From: Arenibacter hampyeongensis
GTDB lineage: Bacteria > Bacteroidota > Bacteroidia > Flavobacteriales > Flavobacteriaceae
Reading direction: 5' to 3'
Assembly: GCF_002909255.1 (NCBI RefSeq)
Contig: NZ_PIOB01000012.1
Location: 1 to 64,000, forward strand
DNA length: 64,000 nt
Shown here piece by piece: positions 30,720 through 51,058 of this stretch (position 1 is the stretch's first letter; every line of letters begins with the position of its first letter). A model generated the notes under the pieces. It was given only the letters and a program-made list of their open reading frames with translations. It made no database searches and had not been told where the DNA came from. Made by a program: the position numbers and the translations under genes.

Positions 30720-30930
30720 TTTACAACGATTGGTGTAAGGTTGCGTGGTTTGAGCAACGAAATTAACAAAAATGGAACGATCCAGAGTTAAAATTGAAGG
30801 ATTTTCCTCCTAGACCGGTACCTGGCAACCCGCCCGAAGTCCGTTCAGTACACCAGTCCGCCCGCCCGAATAACAAAGTCGGGCAGGTACGGATTAGGGC
30901 AGGGACAGGTTACTTATGCACATTGTTTCC
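30720..30930 (-). repeat. attC-like site, VOC/HxlR cassette
   Basis: Left box TTACAACGATTGGTGTAAGG (30721 on) and right end TATGCACATTGTTTCC resemble the outer boxes of the array repeats, with AAC at the left and GTT at the right. The middle holds a CCTGGCAACCCGCCCG-rich insertion. It lies immediately 3' of the VOC gene at 30940 in the minus direction, as expected for a cassette end. It is the leftmost site I recognise. Confidence 0.55.
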
Positions 30931-30939
30931 CATTGGCTT

Positions 30940-31452
30940 TTATTTTGAATATGCACCTGAAGAATAGGTTAATTCATAACTATGGGTATATATTTCAAAG
31001 ACAATTCCGAAAGGGTCCTCAACATAGCACATTTTGAAAGGTTTGTCCTTTGGATAGTACTCCCTAATTGGCATTCTTTGCTTTCCTCCATATGATATAA
31101 TTTTATCAATTAGATCTTCAATATTTGGATCTTGTACGCAAAAATGGAAAAGACCAGTATTGAAAGGATTAAATTCAGGAGCTTCCTTTATTCCGTTTGG
31201 AAAGGAAAATAATTCAATTCCAATTCCGTCTGAGGTTGCTAAATGCGCAATTTCAAATTCATTCCAATCGTCTCCGAAAACGTCAATACACATTTGACCA
31301 ATAGCGGTTTCCTTTTCCTTTTTGACTTTGGATGGTTCCATGATTATGTACCATCCCATTACCTCAGAATAGAATTTTACAGCTTCATTTATATTCGGAA
31401 CTGTAATTCCAATATGTGAAAATGATTTTGGATAATTTTTAATGTCTGTCAT
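30940..31452 (-). CDS. VOC family protein (lactoylglutathione lyase-like)
   Basis: Start at 31452 (Met, then TDIKNYPKSFSHIGITV); the frame extension to 31473 adds no homology. The 170-residue protein has SHIGITVPNINEAVKFYSE, GLFHFCVQDPNIEDLIDKI and CYVEDPFGIVFEIYTHSYE, with the usual metal ligands (His near 13, His in LFHF, Glu in FEIY). It is divergent from the HxlR regulator at 31574, which probably controls it. Confidence 0.8.
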   Translation of the reverse strand: MTDIKNYPKSFSHIGITVPNINEAVKFYSEVMGWYIIMEPSKVKKEKETAIGQMCIDVFGDDWNEFEIAHLATSDGIGIELFSFPNGIKEAPEFNPFNTGLFHFCVQDPNIEDLIDKIISYGGKQRMPIREYYPKDKPFKMCYVEDPFGIVFEIYTHSYELTYSSGAYSK

Positions 31453-31573
31453 AAGTCTTGATTCAGAGTGCAAAAATAATTTATATTTGCCTAAATAGCA
31501 ATAACTTACTAAAAAGTAGTATAGTTACCTAAACGAGTATAATATTGATTATCAATAATATAAATTTTAAATT

Positions 31574-31885
31574 TTGAAAAAAGAGAATAATTGCCCTTTA
31601 AATTATACGATGAATTTAATAGGTACAAAATGGAAACCTTTAATTTTATTCCATTTATTGGAAGGCGATTTGCGTTCAGGGATATTACAAAGGAAAATTC
31701 CTGGTATTTCAAATAAAATGTTTACCCAAACAGTCAGGGAATTGGAAAAAGATGGGTTGATTACCCGAAAAGTTTTTCCTGTAGTTCCACCTAGGGTTGA
31801 ATACAAATTAAGCAATAGGGGGCAATCATTGGAGAAGATTTTAAGGAGTTTGGATGCCTGGGGTACAAATGATTGTCAAAACTGA
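31574..31885 (+). CDS. HxlR family transcriptional regulator
   Basis: A 103-residue DNA-binding protein. The frame begins at TTG (31574); the family core NCPLNYTMNLIGTKWKPLILFHLL is already present a few residues later, so TTG is plausible and the later ATG (31610) would cut the core. It ends in a wing region SGILQRKIPGISNKMFTQTVRELEKDGLI. It is the only plus-strand gene among the array genes. Regulation of the VOC gene, across the 121-base divergent gap, is inferred. Confidence 0.8.
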   Translation: MKKENNCPLNYTMNLIGTKWKPLILFHLLEGDLRSGILQRKIPGISNKMFTQTVRELEKDGLITRKVFPVVPPRVEYKLSNRGQSLEKILRSLDAWGTNDCQN

Positions 31886-31913
31886 TCAAATTGGTTTTTT
31901 TCAAACTTGTTGG

Positions 31914-32012
31914 TAAGGTTTTGGCTATGACTGTTTGCGGTATGAAATCCGATAGGATTTCGGACCGTCCAATAAACATACTAAATACAGGACTATAAAC
32001 TATGCTGGCGGT
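31914..32012 (-). repeat. attC-like site, TraB cassette (degenerate)
   Basis: Left part AAGGTTTTGGCTATGACTG and right part ACTATGCTGGCGGTAG resemble the outer arms of the other sites; an apical hairpin GAAATCC/GGATTTC (about 31944-31961) is present. The AAC/GTT boxes are eroded. It sits 3' of the TraB gene in the cassette direction. Confidence 0.45.
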
Positions 32013-32017
32013 AGTTT

Positions 32018-32899
32018 TTAATTAACTTCTAGTGGAGTAATGATATATCCAAGCTCCTTTAATTGGTTTATTAATCCGCATTCATACATTAAATGACTTA
32101 ATCCAACTGCAATAAAGCAGTTATTCGATTCAAGCTTTTCTCTAATACTGCCCATCCATTTATTGTTTCTGTCGGTTAGCACAAGAGAATTTCTGCAGGG
32201 CTCATTGTTTTTAAAGTCTATTTCCATATTCGAATACCAATCAGTTTCTTCACAGTAATTTGAATTTTCCGCACTAATTTTATCAATAATATTGGCAAGT
32301 CTCCTTTTATGGCTCTTTCGAGGCATTCCCGCAACATCTTTATTAATTAGGACTATTTGTTCTTCAGTGGTTTCCAGCCCATAGAGTTCTATATTTCGTT
32401 CAATTGCGATAGAACCTATATAATCATCTAGAGAAAGAGAGGTATCGTTATCATTTTTGTTTAAACATACCTGTTGCTTGAAATGTCTGTTAAGAAAAAC
32501 ATACATCTCGGTTGGTGTCATCTTATTATAATCAGTAGGACTTGTAGCGAAGAGGTTTTCAATGAAAGTCAAATCTTTTATACTTAAATATTTATTCCAC
32601 TGTGTTTTGCTTGTTCTGTGATTAATAATATCCTCAGCCAATTTACCTGGAATGTTCAGGTTTTCTTTTATTAATAAATCACAGGACTCCAAGGCTTGGT
32701 TTGCCTTTGTTAATGAGTCAAAAAATGATTTTCCAAATGCGTGGTGAGTACCAAAAATATATGATGTTTCATTGGAATCTTGGCTAGTTATTTTGAAAAG
32801 AATGGTGTTATCTCTTAGAGAATCTTTACCATTTTGGCCTAATATAATGGTTGAAGTCAATATTAAGAATAGTTGTGTGGTGATTCTTCTTACTGTCAT
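32018..32899 (-). CDS. TraB/GumN family protein
   Basis: A 293-residue secreted protein with a signal peptide (about 1-21, ending ILGQ). Family motifs: SYIFGTHHAFGKSF (GTHH), a TPTEMYVFLN helix, NIELYGLETTEEQ, and the C-terminal CFIAVGLSHLMYECGLINQL (GxxH). TraB/GumN proteins resemble erythromycin-esterase/ChaN folds and may be metal-dependent proteases. This is the last cassette gene of the clear minus-strand run. Confidence 0.75.
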   Translation of the reverse strand: MTVRRITTQLFLILTSTIILGQNGKDSLRDNTILFKITSQDSNETSYIFGTHHAFGKSFFDSLTKANQALESCDLLIKENLNIPGKLAEDIINHRTSKTQWNKYLSIKDLTFIENLFATSPTDYNKMTPTEMYVFLNRHFKQQVCLNKNDNDTSLSLDDYIGSIAIERNIELYGLETTEEQIVLINKDVAGMPRKSHKRRLANIIDKISAENSNYCEETDWYSNMEIDFKNNEPCRNSLVLTDRNNKWMGSIREKLESNNCFIAVGLSHLMYECGLINQLKELGYIITPLEVN

Positions 32900-32910
32900 A
32901 TTTCTATTTC

Positions 32911-32972
32911 CGCTAACATATGAATACCTTTAAAAAACAATAAAAACGATATAAGTAATGCTACACCATCGG
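32911..32972. repeat. direct repeat A, upstream of TraB
   Basis: About 60 bases around AACAATAAAAACGATAT are about 80% identical to 34373-34434 (repeat B, core AACAATAATAACGATAT), 1.46 kb to the right. The two copies flank the mobile mystery A/B cassette. Copy A is also the 5' leader of TraB and runs into the attC-like site at 32959. Confidence 0.6.
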
Positions 32973-33044
32973 TTGAGCTAAGTTTAGTTGTGGGCTTTTC
33001 CAATGGAAAATGTCCTAATGGAATTAATTATACACCATGTGGCC
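32959..33044 (-). repeat. attC-like site, mobile mystery A/B cassette
   Basis: Left CTACACCATCGGTTGAGC and right TTAATTATACACCATGTGG with a small apical hairpin TTTTCC/GGAAAA (33006-33030 region). The right arm matches the TTATACAC consensus of the array. The box sequence differs from AAC/GTT. The stop codon of the Fic gene lies at its right edge (33045-33047). Confidence 0.5.
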
Positions 33045-33641
33045 TTAGTTTTTTGCAAATTTAATTAATGGTGCAACGTTCCCGTTGTCAGCTTCTCTTA
33101 AGGCGTTTATATACACTTTTCTTGTTTCGTTAGCTTTTACCATATTTGATTGATGCCACGAAAATATTTCATTCCCAAATATCGATTCCATAATTATGTC
33201 TGCCATCATCCTAGAATGTCTACCATTTCCATTTGGAAAACAATGAATAGATACTATTCGATGTTTGAATCTAATTGCTATTTCTTCAGCTGAAAAGGTT
33301 TTATGTTCTATCCAATATTTTGTGTCGTCCAATAAATTCTTTAATTCAAGCCCAATTTTTGTCCATGGAATTCCAATGTTTTTTTCTGTTGTTCTAAATT
33401 CACCTGCCCATTTCCATACATCACCATACATTCTTTTGTGTAGGTCTTTTATGAACTTTTCTGTTAGTATTTTTTCAGGTGTCAATTTTGAATGAATAGT
33501 CCATTCGACCGCTTTTTCAATGTTTAGTTGTTCAAATTCATCCAGTTCTTCTTGAGTGGTGATAGATTTTATTTTAATACCTTCCTTTTCTTCCTCGTCT
33601 AAAGGTGTTTGTCCATCATCATATTTTAATTCTAATCCCAT
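33045..33641 (-). CDS. Fic domain protein (mobile mystery protein B)
   Basis: A 198-residue protein of the Fic/DOC family with the catalytic loop HCFPNGNGRHSRMM (HxFxxGNGRxxR). Motifs DLHKRMYGDVWKWAGEFR and IPWTKIGLELKNLL are typical of mobile mystery protein B. Fic enzymes AMPylate or otherwise modify target proteins; as a pair with an HTH partner it resembles a toxin. It overlaps the HTH gene by 10 bases (33632-33641). Confidence 0.85.
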   Translation of the reverse strand: MGLELKYDDGQTPLDEEEKEGIKIKSITTQEELDEFEQLNIEKAVEWTIHSKLTPEKILTEKFIKDLHKRMYGDVWKWAGEFRTTEKNIGIPWTKIGLELKNLLDDTKYWIEHKTFSAEEIAIRFKHRIVSIHCFPNGNGRHSRMMADIIMESIFGNEIFSWHQSNMVKANETRKVYINALREADNGNVAPLIKFAKN

Positions 33642-34093
33642 AATGATTTTCTTAACTCTCTTTTTATTTCCATAGCAAGGTCTTTTATGGTTTTACTTAT
33701 CTTTTCATCTCCAATGCCTTGGTCCTCAAGTTTCATATTTTGATGGGTCCTCAATACAATCTTTTGGGCCAGTTTTTCGGCTTTTGTACTTATTAAATTT
33801 TCAATAGACCCATTATTTGGAACAAATCCATATACAAATTTCATATCCAGAGCTTGACCTACATCTCTTAATTTGTTAATGGTTATTTGGCCTAAAGCCT
33901 CTCGTTCTTCTATCTTTTGTATGGCTCCTTTAGTCATTTTAAGTTTGGTACCTAACTGGTCCCGAGTCATATTAAGTGTGGTCCGGATAGTGTTTATCCA
34001 TCCTTTTGTTGGAACCTGTACCATTGCTGAATCTTTAAATTTCTCTAATTTTTGGTCCAGTTGTTCAATTAGAAGTTGTTTTTTGTTTCTCAT
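33632..34093 (-). CDS. HTH protein (mobile mystery protein A)
   Basis: A 153-residue protein with a Cro/C1-type helix-turn-helix (about 32-80): WINTIRTTLNMTRDQLGTKL then TKGAIQKIEEREALGQITI. The family is called mobile mystery protein A because it is spread on mobile elements with the Fic partner. It is probably an antitoxin-like repressor of the pair. It is first in the two-gene operon and has palindromes upstream. Confidence 0.85.
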   Translation of the reverse strand: MRNKKQLLIEQLDQKLEKFKDSAMVQVPTKGWINTIRTTLNMTRDQLGTKLKMTKGAIQKIEEREALGQITINKLRDVGQALDMKFVYGFVPNNGSIENLISTKAEKLAQKIVLRTHQNMKLEDQGIGDEKISKTIKDLAMEIKRELRKSLWD

Positions 34094-34108
34094 AATCTTT
34101 TATAAAAC

Positions 34109-34155
34109 ATACATATGTATATAATAATATTAACAAAAGTATACAAATATGTATA
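34109..34155. promoter_or_regulatory. paired AT-rich palindromes, candidate operator
   Basis: A perfect palindrome ATACATATGTAT (34109-34120) and a near palindrome TATACAAATATGTATA (34140-34155), 31 bases apart (about three helical turns), lie 16-62 bases upstream of the HTH gene start. They are likely sites for autoregulation by mobile mystery protein A (inference). Confidence 0.5.
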
Positions 34156-34372
34156 AAAAACAAAAATAAAAAGTACATATATATATTCTTATAATATTAA
34201 AAGTATATGGATAAGTATGCTTGCTAAAGTTGGTTTGTTAAAATCTAAGTCAATGTTTCGTATATACATCCGTTGAGGTTTTACAATGTCGGCTTTATTT
34301 ATTTCATACTCCTTGTTGCGATGACCGAGATACGAGGTGGTGCAATTAGGCTCGCCATAAGCGTCACGAGCT

Positions 34373-34434
34373 CAGGGAACATAGGAATATCTTTGAAAAA
34401 CAATAATAACGATATGGATAATGTTGCACGATCC
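34373..34434. repeat. direct repeat B upstream of the mobile mystery cassette
   Basis: Similar to 32911-32972 over about 60 bases (core AACAATAATAACGATAT then ATGTTGCACG). It suggests that the mobile mystery cassette was inserted between duplicated boundaries or that both cassettes share a common leader. Confidence 0.6.
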
Positions 34435-34560
34435 TTTAGTATCTGGCAAGTGGGGCAGTAGAAAGTACCAAACTTCCAGTTAAGTACAAACTTTGATACG
34501 AGATTAAATCCATGAATTTGGTACTATTTCGCCTATTTTTTATATGCATTGCTGGGTGCA
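34422..34560 (-). repeat. attC-like site, 34627 cassette
   Basis: Left TGTTGCACGATCC and right GCATTGCTGGGTGCA; an apical hairpin AGTACCAAA/TTTGGTACT (about 34467-34525) folds the element. The outer boxes TGCAC/GTGCA pair but lack AAC/GTT, so it is a weaker match. About 139 bases. Confidence 0.4.
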
Positions 34561-34626
34561 GTGTTTTTTGTTTTGAAATCATTTATTTATCCTCACAATT
34601 TTGGACAAAGCCAATCCTACTGTTTT

Positions 34627-35022
34627 CTAGTCTTTTAGTTTCTTATTTGCGCGAGAAGTGAAAAACAACCATTTGATAAATTTTAGAAAAAGCAAGAGTA
34701 TAGGATGAAACATTATAATCAAAAATATCATGGCAGACTCATTAGAACCAGGAATCTGCTGGACCTGAATTATTATTTGAATTAAAATGCCGGTAATAAT
34801 GAGATAAAGTATAGAATAACCCAAAATTGAAAAAAAATAACCCCACCCCGTATCAATAAACAAAACAAGTATAGAACTGAAGATAAGATAGCAACCAAAA
34901 ATAATACCTCCAATACTCCACAGATTTTCAGCTTGGTCTTTACCAAAAATCAAAAGCGACAAAACAGTAATGAGAAAAAATCCAATTGTCAGGTATAATG
35001 GGGTAGAATCGTATGAGAACAT
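34627..35022 (-). CDS. small membrane protein, hypothetical
   Basis: A 131-residue protein with four hydrophobic segments (about 8-27, 35-58, 60-82, 95-118) and a basic C-terminal end. No family recognised. It is the single gene of its cassette in the array, transcribed leftward. No function can be assigned. Confidence 0.55.
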   Translation of the reverse strand: MFSYDSTPLYLTIGFFLITVLSLLIFGKDQAENLWSIGGIIFGCYLIFSSILVLFIDTGWGYFFSILGYSILYLIITGILIQIIIQVQQIPGSNESAMIFLIIMFHPILLLFLKFIKWLFFTSRANKKLKD

Positions 35023-35082
35023 CTATTTCTTAAATTATATTTAAATCAAAATAAGTGTAATAGTGTGAAACGCATATTTCGT

Positions 35083-35332
35083 TGCACACAATGTGTTTGT
35101 GTATGATTGGTTGCGCCTGTCTGCCCAGGCAGGTGATAAAACACCCAATTTAGCAAATACAAACCGAACCTGCCAGCCGGCAGGCTGGTAGAAAATCTAT
35201 CCTGCCACGCTTTTGGGCGTGGGAGGATTTTCAGAAGTAGGCGATAACTAGTAACCCGCCAGAACATACTGTTAGGTACACCCGCCCTTACCAATTTGGA
35301 TGGGGGCGGGTTCATTAGACATGTTGTTGGCA
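35083..35332 (-). repeat. attC-like site, long, SnoaL-fragment cassette
   Basis: Left CACACAATGTGTTTGTGTAT and right ACATGTTGTTGGCAGC; the middle contains CCTGCCAGCCGGCAGGCTGG (35168-35187) and CACGCTTTTGGGCGTGG. That middle is shared with the site at 43987-44160. The repeat is about 250 bp, the longest single site after X2. The stop codon of the gene lies 8 bases from the right end. Confidence 0.6.
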
Positions 35333-35339
35333 GCAGTTT

Positions 35340-35798
35340 TTAATTTTCTATTCCAAATTCAAGTTGTCGGTTGTACTCATCAGTTGGGAAATGTCCTTGA
35401 GAATATAAAATCCGACCATTTTCGCCCATTTTCCAAAGCTCAAATCCACTTATTTTGACTTTTTTACCCGTTCCACCATGGCCAGAATTTGTAGCAGTCA
35501 GTGTCCAATGAAATTCAGTTCCCGTTGGTTTTGTTACAAGGCTGTCATAATTTACTACCATATCTGGAAGGTCACGCATAAAGCCTTGTGCCACTTTTGC
35601 AATTTGTGCCCTTCCCTCCGCAGGTTTGCTTTCGTTCAATTGTAACGCACCGTTTTCTTCAAAGAACAAAGCAACAAACTCAGGACGCACACCGCTCCAT
35701 ACTTGAGTGTAACTCTTGGCAAAAACCTCCATATCAAATTTTTTTATCTCTTCTGGTAAGCGTGTATTTGTGAAAGAAATGTTATCGGCAGCTTCCAT
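35340..35798 (-). CDS. SnoaL-like domain protein, 5'-truncated and fused to repeat R4
   Basis: A 152-residue product (start at 35798). It aligns from residue 7 (ISFTNTRLPEE) to its end with residues about 163-310 of the 312-residue lipoprotein at 44165-45103, matching PEFVA-F, GRAQI-KVA-GFM and DSLVTKP-type motifs. The N-terminal domain and signal peptide of that paralogue are missing. The start codon and first seven residues are encoded inside repeat copy R4 (35776-35833). So it is a remnant or a shortened single-domain (SnoaL-like) protein created at a repeat junction. Expression as a protein is uncertain. Confidence 0.6.
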   Translation of the reverse strand: MEAADNISFTNTRLPEEIKKFDMEVFAKSYTQVWSGVRPEFVALFFEENGALQLNESKPAEGRAQIAKVAQGFMRDLPDMVVNYDSLVTKPTGTEFHWTLTATNSGHGGTGKKVKISGFELWKMGENGRILYSQGHFPTDEYNRQLEFGIEN

Positions 35799-35833
35799 TC
35801 AATGCCTAATGGGCTTGCCCTGAGGTAATTGAC
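35776..35833. repeat. interspersed repeat R, partial copy R4
   Basis: Only the right half is kept: GAAATGTTATC, TTCCATTCAATGCC and GGGCTTGCCCTGAGGTAATTG. It abuts the next attC-like site (35838) and overlaps the 5' end of the gene at 35340-35798. The left half (TTGAATGCTCCAACGTC) appears again at about 35923-35939, possibly by chance. Confidence 0.65.
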
Positions 35834-35837
35834 TTGC

Positions 35838-35971
35838 GGCCAACGTTATAGTGTTTATGAAGTTGTAGCATTTGAAAAATGTCAGCTTCAATTTACCTAA
35901 AGAGTAAAATAGTGAATTATAGTTGAATGCTCCAACGTCCAATCACAATTTTATAGACACACTTGTTGTAT
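35838..35971 (-). repeat. attC-like site, FISUMP cassette
   Basis: 134 bp: left GGCCAACGTTATAGTG and right ATAGACACACTTGTTGTATT. The reverse complement of the right end (ACAACAAGTGTGTCTAT) pairs with the left CAAC-TAGTG-TAT blocks with a spacer mismatch, as in the other sites. It ends about 95 bases before the stop codon of the FISUMP gene. Confidence 0.6.
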
Positions 35972-36066
35972 TCGGACTTATCTCTGTCAGCATAAGTTAT
36001 TTTTCAACCACCTGAAATATTCTATAAGGCCGTCCAATCTTTAAATAATGTAAATAGTCAAATAAA

Positions 36067-36687
36067 TCAATCCCGGACGCAACGAACCGAAAGTCCGCCA
36101 AGAATATTGCCATCGAAACGCCACACTTTGGATTTAATAGACATGTCGGGACCACCATAACTGATGTCCCATAACCAGGCTTTTCCCTCTTCACCGGTGG
36201 GTGTGGACGACCACCAGAATCCGAAATACCCCAGGACGTCATAACCACTATTTCTTCGAATACCTGCAGGAAGCGCGTTAAACCCGCTGCTATTAGTGCC
36301 ATTTCCGTCTTCTTTCCAGCCGTTGATGCTTTTCAAGGCTTCACCAGCCTTATCAGGTCCGCCAAATTCACTCACCAGCATAGACCATTCGATATCCGTT
36401 GCCAAATGCCAACCAGTTGGGCAGGCTTTTTTTGCTGCTTCCCAGGTGTAAAGCAAGCCTAGCTCTTTTCGATTGTTCTCATTGTCATCATAAGCATAGC
36501 TGTCCTGCAGCTTATAGTTCAGGTTTTGGGCCATCCAGATAACCGTAGTGCCAGTCAAAGCGTTTTTAAAGCTGATGGTTTTATACGTTTGCCCATCGCG
36601 CGAGTCAGTAAAGGTGCCAGGGGATTGGGCTATTCCTGCCTGTGTAAAAAGCAAGGCAGAAAGTAGGGTAAAGATGTGCTGTTTCAT
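36067..36687 (-). CDS. FISUMP domain protein
   Basis: A 206-residue exported protein (signal peptide about 1-20, ending GIAQ). The FISUMP (Fibrobacter succinogenes major paralogous) domain follows: TFTDSRDGQTYKTI, IWMAQNLNY, WEAAKKACPTGWHLATDIEW, GFNALPAGIRR and GFWWSSTPTGEE-AWLWDISY. It is a surface/secreted domain of unknown function common in Bacteroidota. Cassette gene. Confidence 0.8.
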   Translation of the reverse strand: MKQHIFTLLSALLFTQAGIAQSPGTFTDSRDGQTYKTISFKNALTGTTVIWMAQNLNYKLQDSYAYDDNENNRKELGLLYTWEAAKKACPTGWHLATDIEWSMLVSEFGGPDKAGEALKSINGWKEDGNGTNSSGFNALPAGIRRNSGYDVLGYFGFWWSSTPTGEEGKAWLWDISYGGPDMSIKSKVWRFDGNILGGLSVRCVRD

Positions 36688-36840
36688 TATAGTTGATTAG
36701 GACTTTCTTGTATGCAATAACCAACAGTGATTGGAATTGAGTTCATAGTTAAATTAGGCAGTTAATTCTTTCTCTTGGCACGCTTCAAATAATTATAGTC
36801 TAAATCTTTTGATGTTATGGTAGGTGGTCCGTGAAAATTG

Positions 36841-36973
36841 GGTACAACCCCTTGGTGTATAATTGGATGCCTTGGCTGGTTCTAAGTTAATAAAAGAAAA
36901 GGTGGCAGGGGAAAATTAGTAGGATTTTCCATGTACAAGCTGAAACAATAATAAACTAAACACCTTGTTCTGC
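36841..36973 (-). repeat. attC-like site, DUF6090 cassette
   Basis: 133 bp: left TACAACCCCTTGGTGTATAA, right ACTAAACACCTTGTTCTGCC. Their pairing is outer box ACAAC/GTTCT, spacer, then GGTGTATAA with TTAAACACC-like block. Apical hairpin GGAAAATT/GGATTTTCC is visible near 36908-36934. Confidence 0.65.
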
Positions 36974-37931: not shown

Positions 37932-37935
37932 CCAG

Positions 37936-38824: not shown

Positions 38825-38880
38825 GCGCTAACTGTTTTGTATAAACGGTCGTTTTAATGCCGCTTAAACATTGTTGTGTT
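38825..38880 (-). repeat. attC-like site, methyltransferase cassette (short form)
   Basis: About 56 bp, the size of a short integron attC: GCTAACTGTTTTGTATAAAC then CGG, four-to-ten base apex, CCG, then CTTAAACATTGTTGTG. AAC at the left and GTT at the right pair, with extrahelical bases only on one arm. The methyltransferase stop (38864-38866) lies within it. Confidence 0.7.
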
Positions 38881-39467: not shown

Positions 39468-39600
39468 ACGCAACTACGGTTTGTAAATGAAAAGTAGCGT
39501 ATTTTACGCACTTTCTTTTCAGTATGGAACTGACTCTGAATTTATGAAAATCACCTTGGATTAAGCACTTAAATCGCTATTTTTTATATAGGTTGTGGTG
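39468..39600 (-). repeat. attC-like site, sigma-factor cassette
   Basis: 133 bp: left ACGCAACTACGGTTTGTAAA, right TTATATAGGTTGTGGTGC. Box GCAAC and GTTGT pair, followed by a spacer and a second block (GTAGCG with CGCTAT). Inside is a hairpin with TAGCGTATTTTACGCA (about 39490-39505). Confidence 0.65.
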
Positions 39601-41474: not shown

Positions 41475-41608
41475 GCACAACGGTTTGTGTATGGTTAGTT
41501 GCGTAAGCGACTAAGATAACAAAAAAGCGTTTCAGTAAGGAAATCCGCTAGGATTTCCGAGACAAACATTACCCACTTTCAAGCAATAAATTATACACGG
41601 TGTTGTGC
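41475..41608 (-). repeat. attC-like site (best copy), 41591 cassette
   Basis: 134 bp. Outer boxes GCACAAC (41475-41481) and GTTGTGC (41602-41608) are perfect reverse complements. After a four-base spacer, TGTGTATGGTTAGTTGC pairs with the complementary GCAATAAATTATACA block, with extra bases on one side. An apical hairpin GGAAATCC/GGATTTCC (41539-41558) crowns it. This is the standard architecture of an integron attC. The gene's stop is inside it. Confidence 0.8.
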
Positions 41609-43986: not shown

Positions 43987-44160
43987 CTCTAACGGTATTG
44001 TGTAAGGTTAGTTGCGTGTTTCAGCAATTAAATTAGGAAATACAAACCGAACCTGCCAGCCGGCAGGCTGGTAGAAAATCCTTCCTGCCACGCTTTTGGG
44101 CGTGGGTAGATTTTCGTAAGTCGGCAGTGACCTAGCAATTAATTATACATGGTGTTGGCA
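43987..44160 (-). repeat. attC-like site, SnoaL lipoprotein cassette
   Basis: 174 bp: left CTAACGGTATTGTGTAAGG, right TTATACATGGTGTTGGCA. AAC/GTT boxes pair, then TGTGTA/TATACA. The loop contains the same CCTGCCAGCCGGCAGGCTGG segment as the site at 35083-35332. The gene stop is 5 bases beyond the right end. Confidence 0.7.
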
Positions 44161-44164
44161 GCAG

Positions 44165-45103
44165 TTATTTTATGTCAGTTCCGAATTTAAGTTGTCTCTC
44201 ATATTCATGGTTGTCAAAATGACCTTTTGATTCTTGGATTAATCCATCTTTATTGACAGTCCATTCCTCAAATCCGTTAATTTTTATTTTGTTTCCAGTT
44301 CCGTTTAGCCCATTATGGGTTCCAGTTAATGTCCAATAGAATCGTTTTTTGTCAGATTTAGTGACTAGACTATCCATTGAAACAATCATATCAGGAAAAG
44401 CGTCCATAAATCCTTTAGCAACATTTGTAATGGCATTTCTACCAACGGCAGGTTCCGCGTCATTCACTTGTAATGAACCGTCTTCAGCATAAAACATAGC
44501 AACAAACTCAGGTCGGTTACTACCCCAGACTTGGGCATAGTTGCGAGCATAGAGATTTAAGTCGAATTCTCTTTCTTCTTCGGGAATCCGGTGAGCGGTC
44601 CATGAAACACTTAACAGTTTCCATTGGTCGATGTCTTTCATCATTATAGCATGATTGACCTCATTGCTACTGGCAACACCGAATTGTGAAATGACGGTAG
44701 GCATTATTACTGATGCCAATCGATCTTCGGTTATATTTATCTTATACGAATTGGCGGATTCTAAAATAGGCTTTGGATCTTTCATATCTCGGATGGTTTG
44801 CAAATACGAGTCAATAGTCATCTCTTTATGCTGCCATTGTCCATCCTTTGGAAACGTATATGCGATAATGGTCTGGTCGAAACTCAGGTCATCCAATTCT
44901 TGAGCATCCCGGTTTCCAACTGCCGCCAAAATGCTTTCCAGTACAGCTTTTATTTCTTTTTCAGATTTACTTGATGTGCTTTCTATTTGGTCTGAAGTAG
45001 TGTTTTCTGAACGTTCTTCTGTGCTTTGTATAGATTGACAACTCACAATCAGCAAGGAAACTAAAAAGGATAATAAAATTTGATTTCTCGTAATATTGTT
45101 CAT
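44165..45103 (-). CDS. two-domain SnoaL-like lipoprotein
   Basis: A 312-residue lipoprotein (lipobox LLIVSC near Cys22). Two NTF2/SnoaL-like alpha+beta modules: about 50-165 (AVLESILAAVGNRDAQELDD, AIMMKDIDQWKLLSVSWTAH) and about 175-305 (PEFVAMFYAEDGSLQVND, GFMDAFPDMIVSMDSLVTK, FYWTLTGTHNGLNGTGNKI). Such folds bind small polyketide-like or unknown ligands. Its C-terminal domain is the paralogue of the truncated gene at 35340-35798. Cassette gene. Confidence 0.75.
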   Translation of the reverse strand: MNNITRNQILLSFLVSLLIVSCQSIQSTEERSENTTSDQIESTSSKSEKEIKAVLESILAAVGNRDAQELDDLSFDQTIIAYTFPKDGQWQHKEMTIDSYLQTIRDMKDPKPILESANSYKINITEDRLASVIMPTVISQFGVASSNEVNHAIMMKDIDQWKLLSVSWTAHRIPEEEREFDLNLYARNYAQVWGSNRPEFVAMFYAEDGSLQVNDAEPAVGRNAITNVAKGFMDAFPDMIVSMDSLVTKSDKKRFYWTLTGTHNGLNGTGNKIKINGFEEWTVNKDGLIQESKGHFDNHEYERQLKFGTDIK

Positions 45104-45123
45104 TTTTCGATTGGTTTAATTGC

Positions 45124-45190
45124 TGGCAACGTTCTGTGTATGGTGTCGTAGCATCCCGCAGGGTATTATGCGCTATACATATTGTTAGCT
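45124..45190 (-). repeat. attC-like site, cyclase cassette (short form)
   Basis: About 67 bp: left CTGGCAACGTTCTGTGTATGG, right CGCTATACATATTGTTAGC. Boxes GCAAC/GTTAGC and TGTGTA/TATACA pair. The TTA stop of the cyclase gene (45185-45187) is inside the right box. Confidence 0.65.
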
Positions 45191-46417
45191 ATATTTTATA
45201 AAATACATTTCCAATTCTCCTTTTCCTTTAGCTTGAATTTTCTCCCTGGTTTCGCAACTGATATCATTTTTGACAAGCTGGTAGGTTGTTTCTGATATAT
45301 TTATTTTGCCAGGCTCTCCTGATGATTCCATCCGACTTGCCGTATTAACCGTATCTCCAAAGAGATCATAGTTAAATTTCTTCTTTCCAACTACGCCAGC
45401 CACTATTGGTCCCGAATGAATCCCAACTCTCATCCTCCATTTTATTTCATGTTTCTTATTTCTCTCCTCCAGATAGGATAGCATCTGTTGTGCAGCTTTA
45501 ATACAATTAATGGCATGATCTTTAACCGCTTCTTCAAGGCCACATGCAGCCATATATGCATCCCCAATTGTTTCAATTTTTTCAACTCCTGCCTCCTCAA
45601 CAATCTCATCGAATCGTCCAAAAATATCATTGAGTTCATTGACCAAAGTGATTGCCGGAATGCTAGCTACCAACTCCGTAAAGCCTTTGAAGTCAGTAAA
45701 CAGAATAGTTACATTTTTGTGCCTTTTGGGCACTGTTTTACCAGTTTCCTTTAGATCTCTTGCCACATTTACAGGAAGAATATTATGCAAAAGATCATCT
45801 GATCTTTTTTGCTCAACCCTCAATGACTCCTCTGATCTATCAATCAGCACAGGCAAAGTCCATGCGATTGTAAGGCAAATCAGTCCAGTTGTGCTGATGT
45901 TAAACATTTGCAGGAAATACGGGTCAAGTACATCATAGTGAGGATTAAATTTGGATTGAAACGTAACCGAAAAAATCAAAGTCAAGACCCCCAGCATGCT
46001 GAAACCAATAGCTAATTTCCTCGCACTTTTGGGGAAAGTCATGTATGGAGTAATTATTATGATGAAACAAATGACCCAAACCCCTGACGAGTAACCCAAC
46101 AAATAAAGAAATAGAATAATTCCAATATAGGACGTAGCGGTAAACCAAGTTGAAGCCAATACCCGCCAACCTTTGCCGTTGAATATTAGAACGAATGAAA
46201 ACATCAATGCTAACAATCCATTGCTTCCGTAAAGTATTGGGGAATCTGTAATGCAAAAAGCGGTAATCATCCACATCACCATGAACAAGATGCCAAGGAT
46301 AGAAGCGATATTTGTTATGCGCAGATACCTATTCTCAGTTATGGAAAACTCCTTATTAGCTCCAATATCAACTATTCTTTGGGAAATTGGAGTTTTGCTT
46401 TTATCACTATTGGGCAT
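45185..46417 (-). CDS. adenylate/guanylate cyclase (class III), membrane-anchored
   Basis: A 410-residue protein. Residues about 25-195 have six hydrophobic segments; residues about 225-405 form a class III cyclase catalytic domain: NVTILFTDFKGFTELVAS (metal Asp), KIETIGDAYMAACGL, WRMRVGIHSGPIVAGVVGKKKFNYDLFGDTVNTASRME. The substrate-specifying positions cannot be resolved between ATP and GTP by eye. It probably makes a cyclic nucleotide at the membrane, possibly sensed by Crp/Fnr-type proteins such as the one at 50145. Confidence 0.85.
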   Translation of the reverse strand: MPNSDKSKTPISQRIVDIGANKEFSITENRYLRITNIASILGILFMVMWMITAFCITDSPILYGSNGLLALMFSFVLIFNGKGWRVLASTWFTATSYIGIILFLYLLGYSSGVWVICFIIIITPYMTFPKSARKLAIGFSMLGVLTLIFSVTFQSKFNPHYDVLDPYFLQMFNISTTGLICLTIAWTLPVLIDRSEESLRVEQKRSDDLLHNILPVNVARDLKETGKTVPKRHKNVTILFTDFKGFTELVASIPAITLVNELNDIFGRFDEIVEEAGVEKIETIGDAYMAACGLEEAVKDHAINCIKAAQQMLSYLEERNKKHEIKWRMRVGIHSGPIVAGVVGKKKFNYDLFGDTVNTASRMESSGEPGKINISETTYQLVKNDISCETREKIQAKGKGELEMYFIKYS

Positions 46418-46465
46418 TATGTTCTAATTGTTTTTATCTAAATAGTTGACTACTTTCAAATTATA

Positions 46466-46787
46466 GCTAACGCAGCGCTATGTACGACATCTGCGACAGC
46501 AGTGGGCGGGTTGTAGCGTTGGTGGGCAATTTTATGGAAATATAGTGAAAACATTTTTTGGTTTTCGCCTGTATTGGGAATAAAATGTGGCGGTCCTTCC
46601 GAGCGCAGCGAACACATGAACACATTAAACAATGGACATGGCACGTATAAATTACATACCTGCCTGCCGGTAGGCAGGTAGCCATTGATATGTTGCGCTG
46701 ATTTCTTCCGTTAAGCGTCGTTCGTAGAAAAAGTACTCATATCCTACGGTTTTATGTGATCTGACATAGCGCTGCGATGATGTTGCA
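46466..46787 (-). repeat. attC-like site X2 (long), inside array
   Basis: Left GCTAAC followed by GCAGCGCTATGT (46472-46483); right ACATAGCGCTGC (46764-46775) followed by GATGATGTTGC. The 12-bp arms are perfect inverted repeats; after them the right arm adds GATGAT before GTTGC, so the boxes AAC/GTT pair with six extrahelical bases on one side. It contains a TACCTGCCT/AGGCAGGTA palindrome (46657-46680) absent from X1. It is about 320 bp. Confidence 0.65.
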
Positions 46788-46890
46788 TTTCCCTTTGTGC
46801 GGGCGACATCTACGATAGTAGTGGGCGAGTTGGGGCGTTGGCAAACGAGATGTAGCACATAGGGTCGACGTAGGAGAATGCAACATCATC
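46776..46890 (-). repeat. 115-bp element Y2 (identical to candidate attI), gene-less segment
   Basis: All 115 bases equal those of 50944-51058. Terminal inverted repeats GATGATGTTGCATT (46776-46789) and AATGCAACATCATC (46877-46890). It sits between X2 and the next attC-like site and holds no gene. Confidence 0.85.
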
Positions 46891-47018
46891 GGTTTTGTGT
46901 ATGGTTAGTTGCGTGTTTCAGCAACTAATTTAGTAAACAAAAACGAACGCGAGAAAATTCCGAAGGAATTTTCCAAATGAGCACTTGCCAAAGCAATTAA
47001 TTATACACGGTGTTGTGT
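46879..47018 (-). repeat. attC-like site after Y2
   Basis: 140 bp: left TGCAAC then ATCATCGGTTTTGTGTATGG, right TTATACACGGTGTTGTGT. Boxes GCAAC/GTTGT and TGTGTAT/ATACAC pair; the apical hairpin GAAAATTCC/GGAATTTTC is at 46953-46973. The segment to its right (47019-47094) has no gene, so this may be a gene-less cassette. Confidence 0.75.
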
Positions 47019-47094
47019 GCAGTTTTTATTCCTCCACTTTTTTGTCAAAGGAAATTATGGCTAGCGAGGGGTAAATTAGTTATTATTTTCGATT

Positions 47095-47171
47095 TGGAAC
47101 TGACGATATCAATTGCGAGTGAATTAGGACGTAGTCGAATGAGCCGTAATTGCGGTTATATATTGTTGGCA
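47095..47171 (-). repeat. attC-like site, GNAT cassette
   Basis: About 77 bp: left TTTGGAACTGACGATATC, right GCGGTTATATATTGTTGGC. Boxes AAC/GTT; inner pairing is weaker (ATAT/ATAT and AATTGCG/CGTAATT). The GNAT stop (47156-47158) lies inside. It is a short-form site. Confidence 0.5.
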
Positions 47172-47629
47172 TTAGTTTTTTCTTTATCTAGATAAACATT
47201 CGGATTAAATTTTTCCATATAGATTTCTGGGTTGGGTAGTTTTGTAAATCCGTATTTTTCATAGAGCCATTCTGCTGTGCTTGTCAATAAAATCCAACGT
47301 CTTAAATCTTGTAAATGTTTATGTTCCATAATTGTTTCCATAAGCCATTTACTCAACCCAAGTCCTCGATATTCTTTTAAAATAAAAATATCTCCAAGAT
47401 ATGCGATAGTAGAAAAGTCTGAAATAACTCTTGCATAACCAATTAATTTTGAGTCAAGATACATTCCGAAATTCAAGGAATTATTTATTGATTTTTTTAC
47501 CTTATCAAAGGGAATTCCATTACTCCATCCCGATTCGTTGGTCAAAAAATTGTGAATTGATGAAATGTCCAATTTTTTTCTGTCGGTTGAAATCAGATAT
47601 TCGTTTTTATATTTTTCTACATTCTCCAA
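47156..47629 (-). CDS. GNAT acetyltransferase
   Basis: A 157-residue protein: YARVISDFSTIAYLGDIFIL and KEYRGLGLSKWLMETIMEH (acetyl-CoA loop RGLGLS), ending STAEWLYEKYGFTKLPNP. C-terminal NANNI and TAA come from the attC-like element 47095-47171. It is the last gene of a six-gene minus-strand run (50708 to 47156) without internal attC-like sites. Confidence 0.8.
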   Translation of the reverse strand: MENVEKYKNEYLISTDRKKLDISSIHNFLTNESGWSNGIPFDKVKKSINNSLNFGMYLDSKLIGYARVISDFSTIAYLGDIFILKEYRGLGLSKWLMETIMEHKHLQDLRRWILLTSTAEWLYEKYGFTKLPNPEIYMEKFNPNVYLDKEKTNANNI

Positions 47630-47689
47630 TTTAGTTCGAGTTTCTTAAATTAATACCAGCTATAGTATATATATGATGTTTTTTTTCTT

Positions 47690-48427
47690 CTATTCTACTA
47701 ATTCCATTAGCATTTTTCTGCTTTCAAAATCAATTGCTTGGATAAGTACTTTTCTTGTTGATGTATCTATGTAATATGTGCTTATAGCAGCGTTGTTTGA
47801 AATGTCATCTGTAGTTTCAACTTTCCAAACTTGTCTCTTCTTTCCATTGAAACTGATAGTGGTCTGTTCTGTATTTTTTATTGTTGCTGTAATTACTCCA
47901 ATTTTAGAGGCGGGGTTATAGTCAAAAATAGAAATAGTGCTTGAATATCTATCTTTTAATGGAAGGAATCTTATTAATTCAGGGTAGAAATTACTGTCAA
48001 AAAAAGGCTTGTCGACTTCTTCAGAAATTTGTGTTTTAATTTCTGTTTGTTTATCAAAATAATAGCCTGTAATTTTTTCTCCAAATTTCAATACCATATC
48101 TCTTTGTTGGTTATAGGAAGAATGATATATGGGTTTAAAGTTGAGTGTTTCAACGATTGTACTGTCAATCCATTCAGTAGGAGACTGTTTCATATTGACT
48201 ATTGTTATAATGAATATCCGCTCTTTTTCTTTCTGAATTTTAGTTTGCACATTTCCTATTTCTACTTTAAGAGAATCTTTACGCATAAACCAAGTCATTT
48301 CCGAAGTTTCGGACTTGATAAGATTTTTGTTAGCTGGATTATTTAATGGACTTAATAGTGATTCCTGACTAAATACCTGAACAGAGGCTCCAAAAATGAA
48401 CAGTAAAATGTAATGTGTTTTTTTCAT
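47690..48427 (-). CDS. secreted DUF3108-like protein, hypothetical
   Basis: A 245-residue protein with a signal peptide (about 1-20, ending VFSQ). Predicted beta-rich, with LETTEDISN-like strands and AISTYYIDTSTRKVLIQAIDF near the end, as in DUF3108-type periplasmic proteins that resemble a lipoprotein-carrier fold. No function. Start overlaps the upstream gene by 4 bases (48424-48427). Confidence 0.6.
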   Translation of the reverse strand: MKKTHYILLFIFGASVQVFSQESLLSPLNNPANKNLIKSETSEMTWFMRKDSLKVEIGNVQTKIQKEKERIFIITIVNMKQSPTEWIDSTIVETLNFKPIYHSSYNQQRDMVLKFGEKITGYYFDKQTEIKTQISEEVDKPFFDSNFYPELIRFLPLKDRYSSTISIFDYNPASKIGVITATIKNTEQTTISFNGKKRQVWKVETTDDISNNAAISTYYIDTSTRKVLIQAIDFESRKMLMELVE

Positions 48428-48831
48428 TTGTTTAAGTTTTCGGTTCCGACTTTAATTGGATTGGTTAGAAATACATAAGCAAAGCATAAAGCTAGAATAG
48501 TGTATATAACTGTAAGTGAAATTATAACTTCCGTATGTCCTTTGATTCCGAATACAATTTTCAATAAAGCGATTGCCCCAACACCAAAATGCATAAAATT
48601 TCCAATCGCCATAGGCCTGTTATAAATTCCTCCAATTAATGTCCCTTTCGCCATCCAATTCATAATTCCAAATCCAAGATAGAGTGAGCCTAATAATTGA
48701 AGGAGAAGATATAAAATGGGGTTTGAACCCATATCTAAATATATGAATATTTCATTTGGCAAAAAGGATAAACCAATTCCCATCAGTCCCAAAAAAAATG
48801 CGCTTGCTGTCAATAAAATTTTTGTATTCAA
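48424..48831 (-). CDS. small membrane protein, hypothetical
   Basis: A 135-residue protein with four hydrophobic helices (about 5-25, 37-55, 72-92, 102-122). No family recognised. It is translationally coupled with 47690 (ATGA-type overlap) and lies in the six-gene unit. No function assigned. Confidence 0.6.
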   Translation of the reverse strand: MNTKILLTASAFFLGLMGIGLSFLPNEIFIYLDMGSNPILYLLLQLLGSLYLGFGIMNWMAKGTLIGGIYNRPMAIGNFMHFGVGAIALLKIVFGIKGHTEVIISLTVIYTILALCFAYVFLTNPIKVGTENLNK

Positions 48832-48911
48832 ATTAGTTGTTTTAAATGTTTATATGTTATAGGTGATTTCAACTCGGATTTTGTTACAAATAAATGCCAA
48901 CTCTTTTTTTT

Positions 48912-49604
48912 CTAACGGATTTCTGTTTTTATGAATTTAAAACCAATTATCAATAACCATATAAGCCAAAGTGTACTACCTAAAAATCCTGCGATATTCC
49001 ATACAGGGAAATTTGGAATCACTGTTGAGAATAACCCTGCTTGTGCAAATAAATAAATAATTGACGCGGCATATCCAAGCCATATAATCCACTTTGGGAA
49101 GAGTTTGAGTTTTTCAAACGCAGAGGTTATCATAACTGTCCAACCAATCGTAAATAACTGTCCGATGTGTTCGCCTAAAATGATTCCTCCATATTGGTGA
49201 ACTACTTTAAACGCAACAGTTACCGCTTCTTTTGTCATCTCGTTACCAAGCACAAAATCTTTGGCTAAAACAGGTACAACGAAGGTCCAGCGCAATAATC
49301 CTAATACTTGAACCATTAAGCCAATGACACCAAGGATTGTTGCCCATCTTACAAAGTAAAATTTAGATTCTAACTTTTGGCCTATTAAAATACAAGCTTC
49401 CAATATAGGTAGACCTAATATTGCAAAAGCCCACCAAGTCCATATTAAAGTGTTACCACCATTATAAAATTTCACTAAAATAGTGCCTGTATCTTGCCTT
49501 AATATGGTTGGATATTCAAATATCATTGTCAAGATAGTATAGGGAACGAAAATGCCGATGACTCCAACAATCAGTAAGATTCCAATAGTTTTTTCAGTTT
49601 TCAT
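48912..49604 (-). CDS. DUF4386 family membrane protein
   Basis: A 230-residue inner-membrane protein with six to seven helices (about 7-30, 55-75, 85-105, 140-160, 165-180, 195-225). The pattern RWATILGVIGLMVQVLGLLR and RWTFVVPVLAKDFV with FKVVHQYGGIILGEHIGQL fits DUF4386. Function unknown. Second gene after the barrel, 6-base gap. Confidence 0.7.
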   Translation of the reverse strand: MKTEKTIGILLIVGVIGIFVPYTILTMIFEYPTILRQDTGTILVKFYNGGNTLIWTWWAFAILGLPILEACILIGQKLESKFYFVRWATILGVIGLMVQVLGLLRWTFVVPVLAKDFVLGNEMTKEAVTVAFKVVHQYGGIILGEHIGQLFTIGWTVMITSAFEKLKLFPKWIIWLGYAASIIYLFAQAGLFSTVIPNFPVWNIAGFLGSTLWLIWLLIIGFKFIKTEIR

Positions 49605-49610
49605 TATCGT

Positions 49611-50066
49611 TTAGAATTTGAATGAATAACTGATACTTGGTGTTGGGTTAATTTTTAAATCCTTTCCTTCAGCTGTTAGTGCAATTACACCTATACGAAA
49701 GTTTAAGCCTTTCCAAACATACCAACGAAAACCTGCTTCTACTCCCAAGGCATTTTCGTTTTTGTAATCTCTTGTCGTCCCTCTCAAATAAGATAGTCCG
49801 CCGTAAAAAGAGGATGGAATTTCTTTTTCATCAACAGGAAGAAACCAATAGCTTATGCCTGCTTTTAAAAATTCGGTGGTTACACCACTTTCAAAATTGG
49901 TAGGATAATAACCTGCGTGAATTGAAAATTGATGGTGTTGGTACTCTAATCCAATAGATGGGTTTCTAAATCCATTGATGCTCAATTGATTTTTAGGAAA
50001 TTTACTTTGAGCGAATGTTGTGCCTGCTATTAAAAGCAACACAACTAATAAAACATTTTTTTGCAT
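49611..50066 (-). CDS. secreted beta-barrel-like outer-membrane protein
   Basis: A 151-residue protein; signal peptide about 1-20 (ending TTFAQ). The mature part has eight short amphipathic strands (NQLSINGFRNPSIGLEYQ, SIHAGYYPTNF, FRWYVWKGLNFRIGVI) and ends SYSFKF, a typical outer-membrane C-terminus with aromatic residue. A Crp/Fnr gene lies upstream, with a palindrome between them. Confidence 0.65.
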   Translation of the reverse strand: MQKNVLLVVLLLIAGTTFAQSKFPKNQLSINGFRNPSIGLEYQHHQFSIHAGYYPTNFESGVTTEFLKAGISYWFLPVDEKEIPSSFYGGLSYLRGTTRDYKNENALGVEAGFRWYVWKGLNFRIGVIALTAEGKDLKINPTPSISYSFKF

Positions 50067-50119
50067 ATCTTTTTATTTAAAATGATGATGCAAAATTGCT
50101 TCAAGTAATATTGTTTTTA

Positions 50120-50135
50120 TTGGACAAATGTCCAA
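50120..50135. promoter_or_regulatory. 16-bp palindrome between Crp/Fnr gene and barrel gene
   Basis: TTGGACAAATGTCCAA: arms TTGGACA and TGTCCAA are perfect complements around AA. It is 53 bases upstream of the barrel gene start, in the 78-base gap after the Crp/Fnr gene. This length and symmetry suit a Crp/Fnr-type dimer site, so it may control the operon (inference). Confidence 0.55.
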
Positions 50136-50144
50136 AACTACTTT

Positions 50145-50708
50145 TCAGCAAATATTTTTTCTTAATCTACTCAAATGTCTTTGTGTAATTCCCATCATCG
50201 ATGCGATGTATTGCAAAGGTATTTGCTGTAAAATTTCAGGTTCTTCTTCCATTAGTTTTTTATAACGCTCGTCCGCCGTAAGCGTCAGTAGGTCAAACTT
50301 GCTTTTGTCGATACAGCAAATTTGCCATTCTATAAGGCCAATATAAAATTCCTTAAATGCAGGAACTTCATTTTGCAGTTTAACTACATTTTTTTTGTCA
50401 ATAATCCACAAGGTAGCTTTTGTTAAGGCTCTTATATTTTCCCTTGAAGGTATTTCTCTCAAATAACTTAAAAGTGATCCGACAAAAGAGTTTTGAAGTG
50501 CAATGTAGGTAGTACGTTCTTCTCCTTTTGATAAGGAATAATATTGAAAAGAACCTTCATCAATAAATGCGAGTTGATTGGTTATTTTTCCCTCTTTAAC
50601 AAAAAAATCACCTTTATTATATCGTTTGCAATGAAAAACGTTGGTTATTTTTTCAACGTCAATTGAGCTGAACCCAGATTGAATGAAGTATGTTTTTAAT
50701 TTTTCCAA
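50145..50708 (-). CDS. Crp/Fnr family transcriptional regulator
   Basis: A 187-residue protein: cNMP-binding-like beta-roll (about 15-110; GDFFVKEGKITNQLAFIDEG) and a C-terminal HTH (about 150-185; PLQYIASMMGITQRHLSRLRK). The nearest gene to the recombinase, first of the six-gene run to 47156. It may regulate the barrel gene through the palindrome at 50120-50135. Confidence 0.8.
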   Translation of the reverse strand: MEKLKTYFIQSGFSSIDVEKITNVFHCKRYNKGDFFVKEGKITNQLAFIDEGSFQYYSLSKGEERTTYIALQNSFVGSLLSYLREIPSRENIRALTKATLWIIDKKNVVKLQNEVPAFKEFYIGLIEWQICCIDKSKFDLLTLTADERYKKLMEEEPEILQQIPLQYIASMMGITQRHLSRLRKNIC

Positions 50709-50735
50709 AGTCTGTGGTGATTATCGTTTAAATTG

Positions 50736-50955
50736 CTCACAACGCAGCGCTATGTGTAGTCCGCGATATTTTATGGAAATATAGTGAAAACCTTTTTTGG
50801 TTTTCGACGGTATTGGGAATAAAATGTGGCGGTCCAGATTACATATAGTGACTTGATATGTTGGGTTGGTTTCTTCCGTTAAGCGTCGTTCTAAGAAAAA
50901 GTACCCTTATCCTACGGTTTTATGTGATCTGACATAGCGTTGCGATGATGTTGCA
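50736..50955 (-). repeat. attC-like site X1, adjacent to candidate attI
   Basis: Left CTCACAAC then GCAGCGCTATGT (50744-50755), right ACATAGCGTTGC (50932-50943) then GATGATGTTGCA; 11 of 12 arm bases pair. It is homologous to X2 but shorter (220 bp), lacking about 45 bases near the left arm and the palindrome insert. Confidence 0.65.
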
Positions 50956-51058
50956 TTTCCCTTTGTGCGGGCGACATCTACGATAGTAGTGGGCGAGTTG
51001 GGGCGTTGGCAAACGAGATGTAGCACATAGGGTCGACGTAGGAGAATGCAACATCATC
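50944..51058 (+). repeat. 115-bp element Y1, candidate attI
   Basis: It has perfect 14-bp terminal inverted repeats: GATGATGTTGCATT (50944-50957) and AATGCAACATCATC (51045-51058). It is GC-richer than the surroundings, and lies directly between the array and the recombinase start (149 bases downstream). This is where a classical integron has attI. It is identical to Y2 at 46776-46890. Confidence 0.7.

Follow-up and report, generated by a model that had tools for sequence, protein, structure and literature searches.

Which kind of genetic system is represented by a 20-kb gene array in the genome of Arenibacter hampyeongensis, and what could have assembled it? The array lies in a stretch of 64,000 nt of NZ_PIOB01000012.1 (hereafter the window), which is part of contig C4 of an Arenibacter genome (our G000, hereafter the own genome). 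It comprises about 25 genes, mostly on the minus strand, whose small and varied products, as judged from the open reading frames (ORFs) of the window and from Pfam and NCBIfam profile searches, include glyoxalase, TraB-like, SnoaL, methyltransferase, GNAT, sigma factor and cyclase proteins, a pair with Fic and helix-turn-helix (HTH) domains, and others. At its right end a recombinase gene (51207-52274, plus strand) points away from the cassettes. The initial annotation of this locus had already described mostly minus-strand genes with related repeats at their 3' sides, a single recombinase facing away from them, and small varied cargo with a toxin/antitoxin-like pair, and our searches bear out all of this. 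It had also proposed a distinct integron-type cassette system using a Xer-like recombinase; we retain the first half of this proposal and refine the second. In our opinion the locus is very probably an integron: its recombinase, which belongs to a clade near IntI but is devoid of the I2 domain, would move cassettes at attI-like and attC-like sites, a reading that we draw from sequence comparison.

Predicted hairpin sites and complementary cassette ends

The sites were searched for with R1, a covariance model for which 17 elements of four genomes, read on the bottom strand, served as seeds, two of them coming from the window. Between positions 28000 and 54000, with filters off, R1 finds ten attC-like elements (expectation value, E, <= 0.017), all on one strand and distributed from 30.7 to 47.0 kb. 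The earlier figure of about 17 elements finds no support in the model: three more, decayed candidates (32967-33040, 47046-47167 and 35089-35150) reach E 0.45-0.84 only, and over the whole window, with default filters, there is no R1 score below E 0.5 beyond the ten. Starting from the recombinase side, they are:

46887..47014, minus strand: attC-like element (R1 83.8 bits, E 4.5e-17)
45127..45186, minus strand: attC-like element of the short type (R1 26.6 bits, E 3.9e-4)
43990..44156, minus strand: attC-like element, R1 seed (R1 80.9 bits, E 2e-16)
41478..41604, minus strand: attC-like element, R1 seed (R1 72.1 bits, E 2e-14)
39474..39597, minus strand: attC-like element (R1 60.8 bits, E 6.8e-12)
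38829..38875, minus strand: attC-like element of the short type (R1 23.0 bits, E 0.0025)
36845..36969, minus strand: weak attC-like element (R1 19.3 bits, E 0.017)
35841..35967, minus strand: attC-like element (R1 28.1 bits, E 1.7e-4)
34430..34553, minus strand: weak attC-like element (R1 20.0 bits, E 0.012)
30724..30927, minus strand: last attC-like element, at the distal end of the array (R1 28.1 bits, E 1.7e-4)

We find, as in an integron, a tandem of cassettes on one strand, each with a related palindromic site at its 3' end. Read in the sense of the array, an element consists of AAC, 3 nt, an L stem, a variable loop, the other arm of the L stem, 5-7 nt and GTTR. The stem is paired in 96.9% of its alignment cells in the 17 seeds, against 85.4% after shuffling (none of 500 shuffles as high), and the 16 bp of the L stem covary: both-sided changes number 32 in the seeds against 10.8 when shuffled, and 410 against 112 in 146 distinct elements whose alignment was fitted to the model (0/500 shuffles in either case). 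In 21 of 25 elements it is the bottom strand that gives the more stable fold (mean 2.2 kcal/mol). On this strand two stem pairs are nearly always G.T (16/17 and 17/17 seeds; 133/146 and 145/146 elements, the latter counts being made on an alignment fitted to a model of G.T-bearing seeds), and the same two pairs are A.C mismatches on the top strand. The central spacer is unpaired and asymmetric, with 5-7 nt facing 3 nt in 146/146 elements of the model-fitted alignment, as it is in IntI integrons. Most stems, on the other hand, do not carry the two or three extrahelical bases which a passage of PMC2727003 gives for the classical attC site; the 16-bp stem has no unpaired base in 117 of the 146 elements.

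The two ends of a cassette are moreover complementary to each other, R' at the 5' end to R'' at the 3' end. In 102 adjacent pairs of sites, from the window and related arrays together, the heptamer after GTT was compared with the complement of the one before the next AAC: on average 5.88 of the seven positions agree, against 2.45 for mispairings of the same pairs (0/10,000 permutations as high), and 78 of these pairs match at 6/7 or better. In a replicate, 34 pairs were taken from six platforms of genomes that had given no seeds, with 5.56 against 2.50 (0/10,000). Thirteen of the 14 tested end bases lie outside R1, the first of the seven head bases being inside the model. The larger test used 162 of 178 R1 hits, with weak hits, cut-off hits and opposite-strand echoes left out, and 14 hits without the expected AAC and 16 without the expected GTT dropped at that end; the replicate used 53 of 55. 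Two cassettes of the window may serve as examples, the first having been found in a separate scan:

45184..46471, minus strand: cassette whose gene (45185-46417) encodes a guanylate/adenylate cyclase domain; its two ends are complementary over 10 nt including GTT/AAC
44154..45130, minus strand: cassette whose gene (44165-45103) encodes a SnoaL domain; beyond GTT/AAC its ends are complementary at 6/7 positions

The cassettes whose ends match at 5/7 or better (n = 87) measure 295-2593 nt, with a median of 710; their longest ORF runs in the array sense in 80, in the opposite sense in one, and six have no ORF of 60 aa. In 69 of the 87, the eighth position beyond the core box is occupied by an A/C mismatch similar to those of the stem. 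Such end complementarity is the signature that one would expect if cassettes are circular and each pairs its own two ends. It is already known in classical attC sites, where R' and R'' are described as complementary over 9-11 nt (passage in PMC2727003), and it therefore argues for a kinship of mechanism rather than for novelty.

The recombinase and its attI-like site

51207..52274, plus strand: tyrosine recombinase of 355 aa, the proposed integrase (Pfam PF13495 and PF00589)

This protein has an N-terminal extension of about 85 aa, a SAM-like core-binding domain and a catalytic domain. Its closest named relatives, 93-94% identical, are those of A. palladensis, A. troitsensis, A. echinorum and A. 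algicola, and its closest protein family (120 rows listed; Maribacter, Winogradskyella, Allomuricauda and others) is mostly of 355 aa and 62-93% identical. Residues R213, H302, R305, H328 and Y337, presumably the catalytic ones, are invariant in 25 aligned sequences, namely that of the window and 24 relatives.

That the recombinase is not a classical IntI, as the initial annotation had stated, is clear from its domains. The best NCBIfam match is recomb_XerA_Arch (202 bits, under its cut-off of 220); integrase_gron gives 184 bits, under its cut-off of 265 and split in two stretches, and the TIGR02249 matches listed for the gene span profile positions 6-179 and 241-315 only. Against VchIntIA (2a3v), residues 202 to 246 of the latter face residues 278 to 281 of the query, 43 being skipped against 2. 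The span around patch III, measured on a common alignment, has 50 residues in the window recombinase, 50-56 in the array-type proteins, 53-61 in Xer and 93 in Vibrio IntI (8 rows). The IntI-specific additional domain (I2) is thus missing, and under the definition in use in the field the protein does not count as an IntI. Neither the own genome nor 39 relatives contain an IntI above the TIGR02249 cut-off (0/40).

Nor does the protein group with the housekeeping XerC/XerD, which form a clade of their own (support 100/98). The array-type recombinases make up another (33 rows, 98/91) and IntI a third (15 rows, seven from Bacteroidota, 100/100); the array clade, IntI and two other recombinases group together at 98/91. 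These trees place the clade of the window recombinase on the IntI side, apart from XerC/XerD. A sister relation of the array clade and IntI alone is supported at 88/53 only. Three long branches (L179, L161 and L164) were dropped from this second tree; in a first one, which included L161 and L164, the array rows were still one group (95/84). A Foldseek search with a predicted model ranks VchIntIA first, at low TM-scores of about 0.4.

Between the recombinase gene and the array lies the presumptive insertion site, next to a repeated unit which was also found once within the array:

51058..51081, minus strand: attI-like site (core 51058-51078), the core being identical over 18-20 nt in six Arenibacter platforms and one Zobellia platform
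50744..51058, minus strand: ORF-less repeated unit at attI, starting GATGATG, not GTTRNNN
46472..46890, minus strand: another copy of this ORF-less unit, which follows immediately on an attC-like element

The core reads TTAATTACACATATATATGT|G, its G being at 51058, where we would place the crossover, and the site contains the palindrome ACACATATATATGTGT wherever a GTT cassette comes next. In seven of the eight platforms compared, which have recombinases of 355 aa, the core stands 148-149 nt from the recombinase start, and the first cassette differs in each of the seven; by comparison, then, these platforms have a constant attI beside the integrase gene and a variable first cassette. The attI-like repeat of the initial annotation (50853-51058) had to be abandoned as such, since it belongs to the ORF-less unit (its second copy is at 46685-46890); what stands is the attI-like core that it abuts. 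As for the unit itself, it is 315-419 nt long, has a long inverted repeat GATGATGTTGCATT...AATGCAACATCATC, and sits directly after attI or attC. It is matched in seven of 13 genomes searched, the own one included, four having only pieces under 90 bp, and several matches are at contig ends. It may be a cassette without an ORF, or else an element targeting attI and attC sites.

The mechanism that we have in mind is as follows. A circular cassette would fold its attC as a single bottom strand, which would be marked by the two conserved G.T wobbles of the stem and by the asymmetric spacer (5-7 nt against 3), a role that extrahelical bases, read by the I2 helix, have in classical attC sites; the recombinase would bind the R and L boxes, cut at G^TT and join the cassette to attI, and new cassettes would enter next to the recombinase. 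Could the same arrays be recombined instead by a Xer/dif-like reaction on double-stranded R boxes, as in pdif modules, the hairpin being a by-product of inverted boxes? A recombinase without the I2 helix that docks extrahelical bases would suit such a reaction, as would an attI-like core that is a double-strand palindrome. However, it requires neither a covarying 16-bp L stem, nor the covariation of the ends within each cassette, nor a greater stability of the bottom strand, and all three are seen. We consider it improbable, and we prefer the single-strand mechanism.

Cassette exchange between related genomes

If the locus is an integron, cassettes should come and go as exact units, as the initial annotation had predicted, and this is what the comparison of platforms indicates: GTT...AAC...attC units are found again in other arrays, and it is at the GTT/AAC boxes that the similarity breaks off. 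The first cassette at the attI of genome G013 (L054) is 87.7% identical, from GTT to the end of attC, to one inside the array of G006 (L121). Loci L120 and L119 have in common a 2.6-kb cassette (77%), with the left break at C|GTT and the right one just after CGTT. In L106 and L107 an identical cassette of 407 bp is preceded by left neighbours that diverge from 2 bases before GTT. Separately, in G004, L115 (13534-14505) contains a perfect tandem duplication of a 396-bp cassette.

These data bear on another explanation, namely that there is no recombination system and the locus is an ordinary genomic island, its repeats being terminator-like or REP-like (repetitive extragenic palindromic). The uneven preservation of the elements in the window would agree with it. 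It is contradicted by the exchange of units, by the complementarity of cassette ends and by the constant attI with its variable first cassette; the fixed gene order without unit exchange that it predicts is not what appeared. We think that this explanation has scarcely any chance of being correct, and retain the integron.

The surroundings of the array can be followed in congeners. Two more features of the window are needed here:

30233..30703, minus strand: methyltransferase gene (which we take to be TrmL-like), the left-hand neighbour of the array at its distal end
33045..34093, minus strand: mobile mystery protein A/B pair (HTH and Fic), array cargo (NCBIfam TIGR02612 and TIGR02613, above cut-offs)

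The sequence to the right of the recombinase is similar in five other Arenibacter loci, this similarity being absent in L046 and L047, and the left flank of the window (20001-31000) was not found in L049-L052. In the congener G005 about 1.4 kb separate the TrmL-like gene from a homologue of the right-flank gene 52445-53293, and this interval holds one other gene and no array, recombinase or attI core; an R1 match lies beyond the TrmL-like gene (L281, 7658-7813, E 7e-4), and other recombinases of the array clade occur elsewhere in that genome. The A/B pair is the toxin/antitoxin-like pair of the initial annotation. Its protein B is full-length in three of 18 genomes of the genus, the own one included, with short weak pieces in two more. 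In G004 (L279) a homologue of the pair stands about 1 kb from the TrmL-like gene, and the two genes that intervene in the window are missing there.

A second integron lineage in the Bacteroidota?

Is this recombinase the one that goes with the sites, and how far does the association extend? We counted elements near recombinases among the matches listed, in R1-searched genomes, with classes defined by bits and not by the tree. An element is found within 20 kb of 12 of the 28 recombinases with at least 170 bits, and of one of the 55 with 60-109 bits, which are mostly XerC/D-like. In seven loci (110 kb) around canonical Bacteroidota IntI genes R1 finds no element at E <= 0.01, and in 10 loci around eight short recombinases it finds 55 hits (54 distinct), although the latter loci, unlike the IntI loci, were picked for elements already seen there.

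A canonical IntI acting in trans, the neighbouring recombinase being incidental, might still be invoked, since an IntI above the TIGR02249 cut-off is present in eight of 32 element-bearing genomes. All eight are outside the class of the window, and one of these genes has an internal stop; the 15 of the 32 that belong to this class (nine further Flavobacteriaceae and six others) have no IntI above the cut-off, in line with the 0/40 given above. Together with the lack of R1 elements around the seven IntI genes and with the 12/28 association just described, this leads us to regard an IntI in trans as very improbable, and to attribute the cassettes to the recombinase of the clade itself. Both kinds of platform, with canonical IntI and without I2, occur on different contigs in G076 (C10, C33) and G092 (C18, C4).

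R1 matches are present in 63 of 198 evenly sampled Bacteroidota genomes and in 45 of 103 genera, 40 of the 63 having two or more. On plasmids they occur in all four loci fetched around recombinase relatives (of 63 records), two with a single weak match. Of 78 viral-contig loci returned, 20 were examined, and 13 of these have R1 elements on one and the same strand, upstream of a recombinase related to ours (L199, L201, L203, L205, L208, L210, L211, L213, L215, L216, L221, L230 and L232); these contigs may be misclassified host sequence. Two side observations concern plasmids. In one from Flagellimonas marinaquae (L276, 10815-13724) a short recombinase, annotated xerA, accompanies two R1 elements that flank a gene of the dihydrofolate reductase family, and erm(F) lies between these elements and the recombinase. 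Acinetobacter plasmids (47 records) carry relatives of the recombinase which, among the matches listed, start at residue 120 or 150 and have 45-47% identity.

We lean towards the view, held with less assurance than that on the window itself, that Bacteroidota have a second, phylum-wide integron lineage, borne by chromosomes as well as by plasmids and viral contigs, in which an I2-less enzyme recombines folded single-stranded sites and the strand is set by the G.T wobbles instead of extrahelical bases. A number of observations weigh against our interpretation and should be acknowledged. The array of the window is partly decayed, and its three testable cassette pairs gave 6/7, 1/7 and 0/7 matching end bases, probably because intervening elements were missed in the two low ones; the first unit at its attI starts with GAT instead of GTT. 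The own genome has two more platforms, on contigs C11 (from 1477) and C22 (from 405552), with related recombinases and R1 elements, and these recombinases could act on the array of the window. An unpaired stem base is present in 29 of the 146 elements, at one place in 26 and mostly T. Among the matches listed, 16 of the 28 recombinases with at least 170 bits have no element within 20 kb (several are at contig ends, and two, in G013 and G002, have elements in another R1 scan), and six of the 13 with 115-170 bits, which fall outside our claim for the clade, do have one. Around the Tenacibaculum platform L047, whose recombinase is 63% identical, R1 places no element (E <= 0.001) within 10 kb, and another scan only one short element; of the eight platforms compared it is the one that lacks the attI-like core. 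To these must be added the choice of loci, the model-fitted G.T counts and the eight genomes with IntI, all mentioned above.

How does the system relate to those already known? With sedentary chromosomal integrons it has in common the folded 3' site with R'/R'' complementarity in each cassette, the asymmetric unpaired spacer, the favoured bottom-strand hairpin, the attI beside the integrase, ORFs in the array sense and the turnover of cargo; it differs from them by the missing I2/patch III domain (50 against 93 residues), by a recombinase clade of its own, by sites mostly without extrahelical bases and by the two near-fixed G.T wobbles. Archaeal XerA and XerC-XerD have the same catalytic fold and likewise no I2 insert, yet the XerC/D-like proteins of Bacteroidota form their separate clade, and 54 of the 55 in their score range lack an element within 20 kb among the matches listed. 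The pdif modules of Acinetobacter plasmids are also gene units moved by Xer-type recombinases; they use short double-strand dif-like sites, whereas here there are long covarying hairpins and a dedicated recombinase.

Integrons have been reported from Bacteroidota (PMC8618304, in a passage), and a passage of a 2022 survey counts for Bacteroidetes proper only In0 before, and one complete integron now (PMC9024848). The canonical ones, for example that of Salinibacter ruber M1 (same source), resemble our system in phylum and general organisation, but have IntI by definition, and no R1 elements surround the seven IntI genes of other Bacteroidota. As surveys are said to recognise integrases by the IntI-specific domain, besides clusters of attC (part of PMC9668308), the present system is organised like an integron, yet is not an IntI integron by that definition. 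Among the matches listed from the open-access literature, preprints aside, there was no description of such Flavobacteriaceae arrays, although this was a limited search and a prior description is possible. We conclude that the array likely works as a second kind of integron, one that is apparently undescribed.

Searches for integrases based on the I2 domain would miss such platforms, and the sampled genomes with a site match (63/198, 40 of them with two or more) indicate how many may be concerned. The acquisition of the I2 helix is said to have shifted integron integrases from double-strand to single-strand recombination; I2 docks the extrahelical bases, its deletion abolishes IntI1 function, and a direct demonstration of causality is, by the same account, not available (all from a portion of PMC7790495). 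A natural system without I2, and mostly without extrahelical bases, would make this question testable. If our reading is true, single-strand cassette recombination either predates I2 or arose twice.

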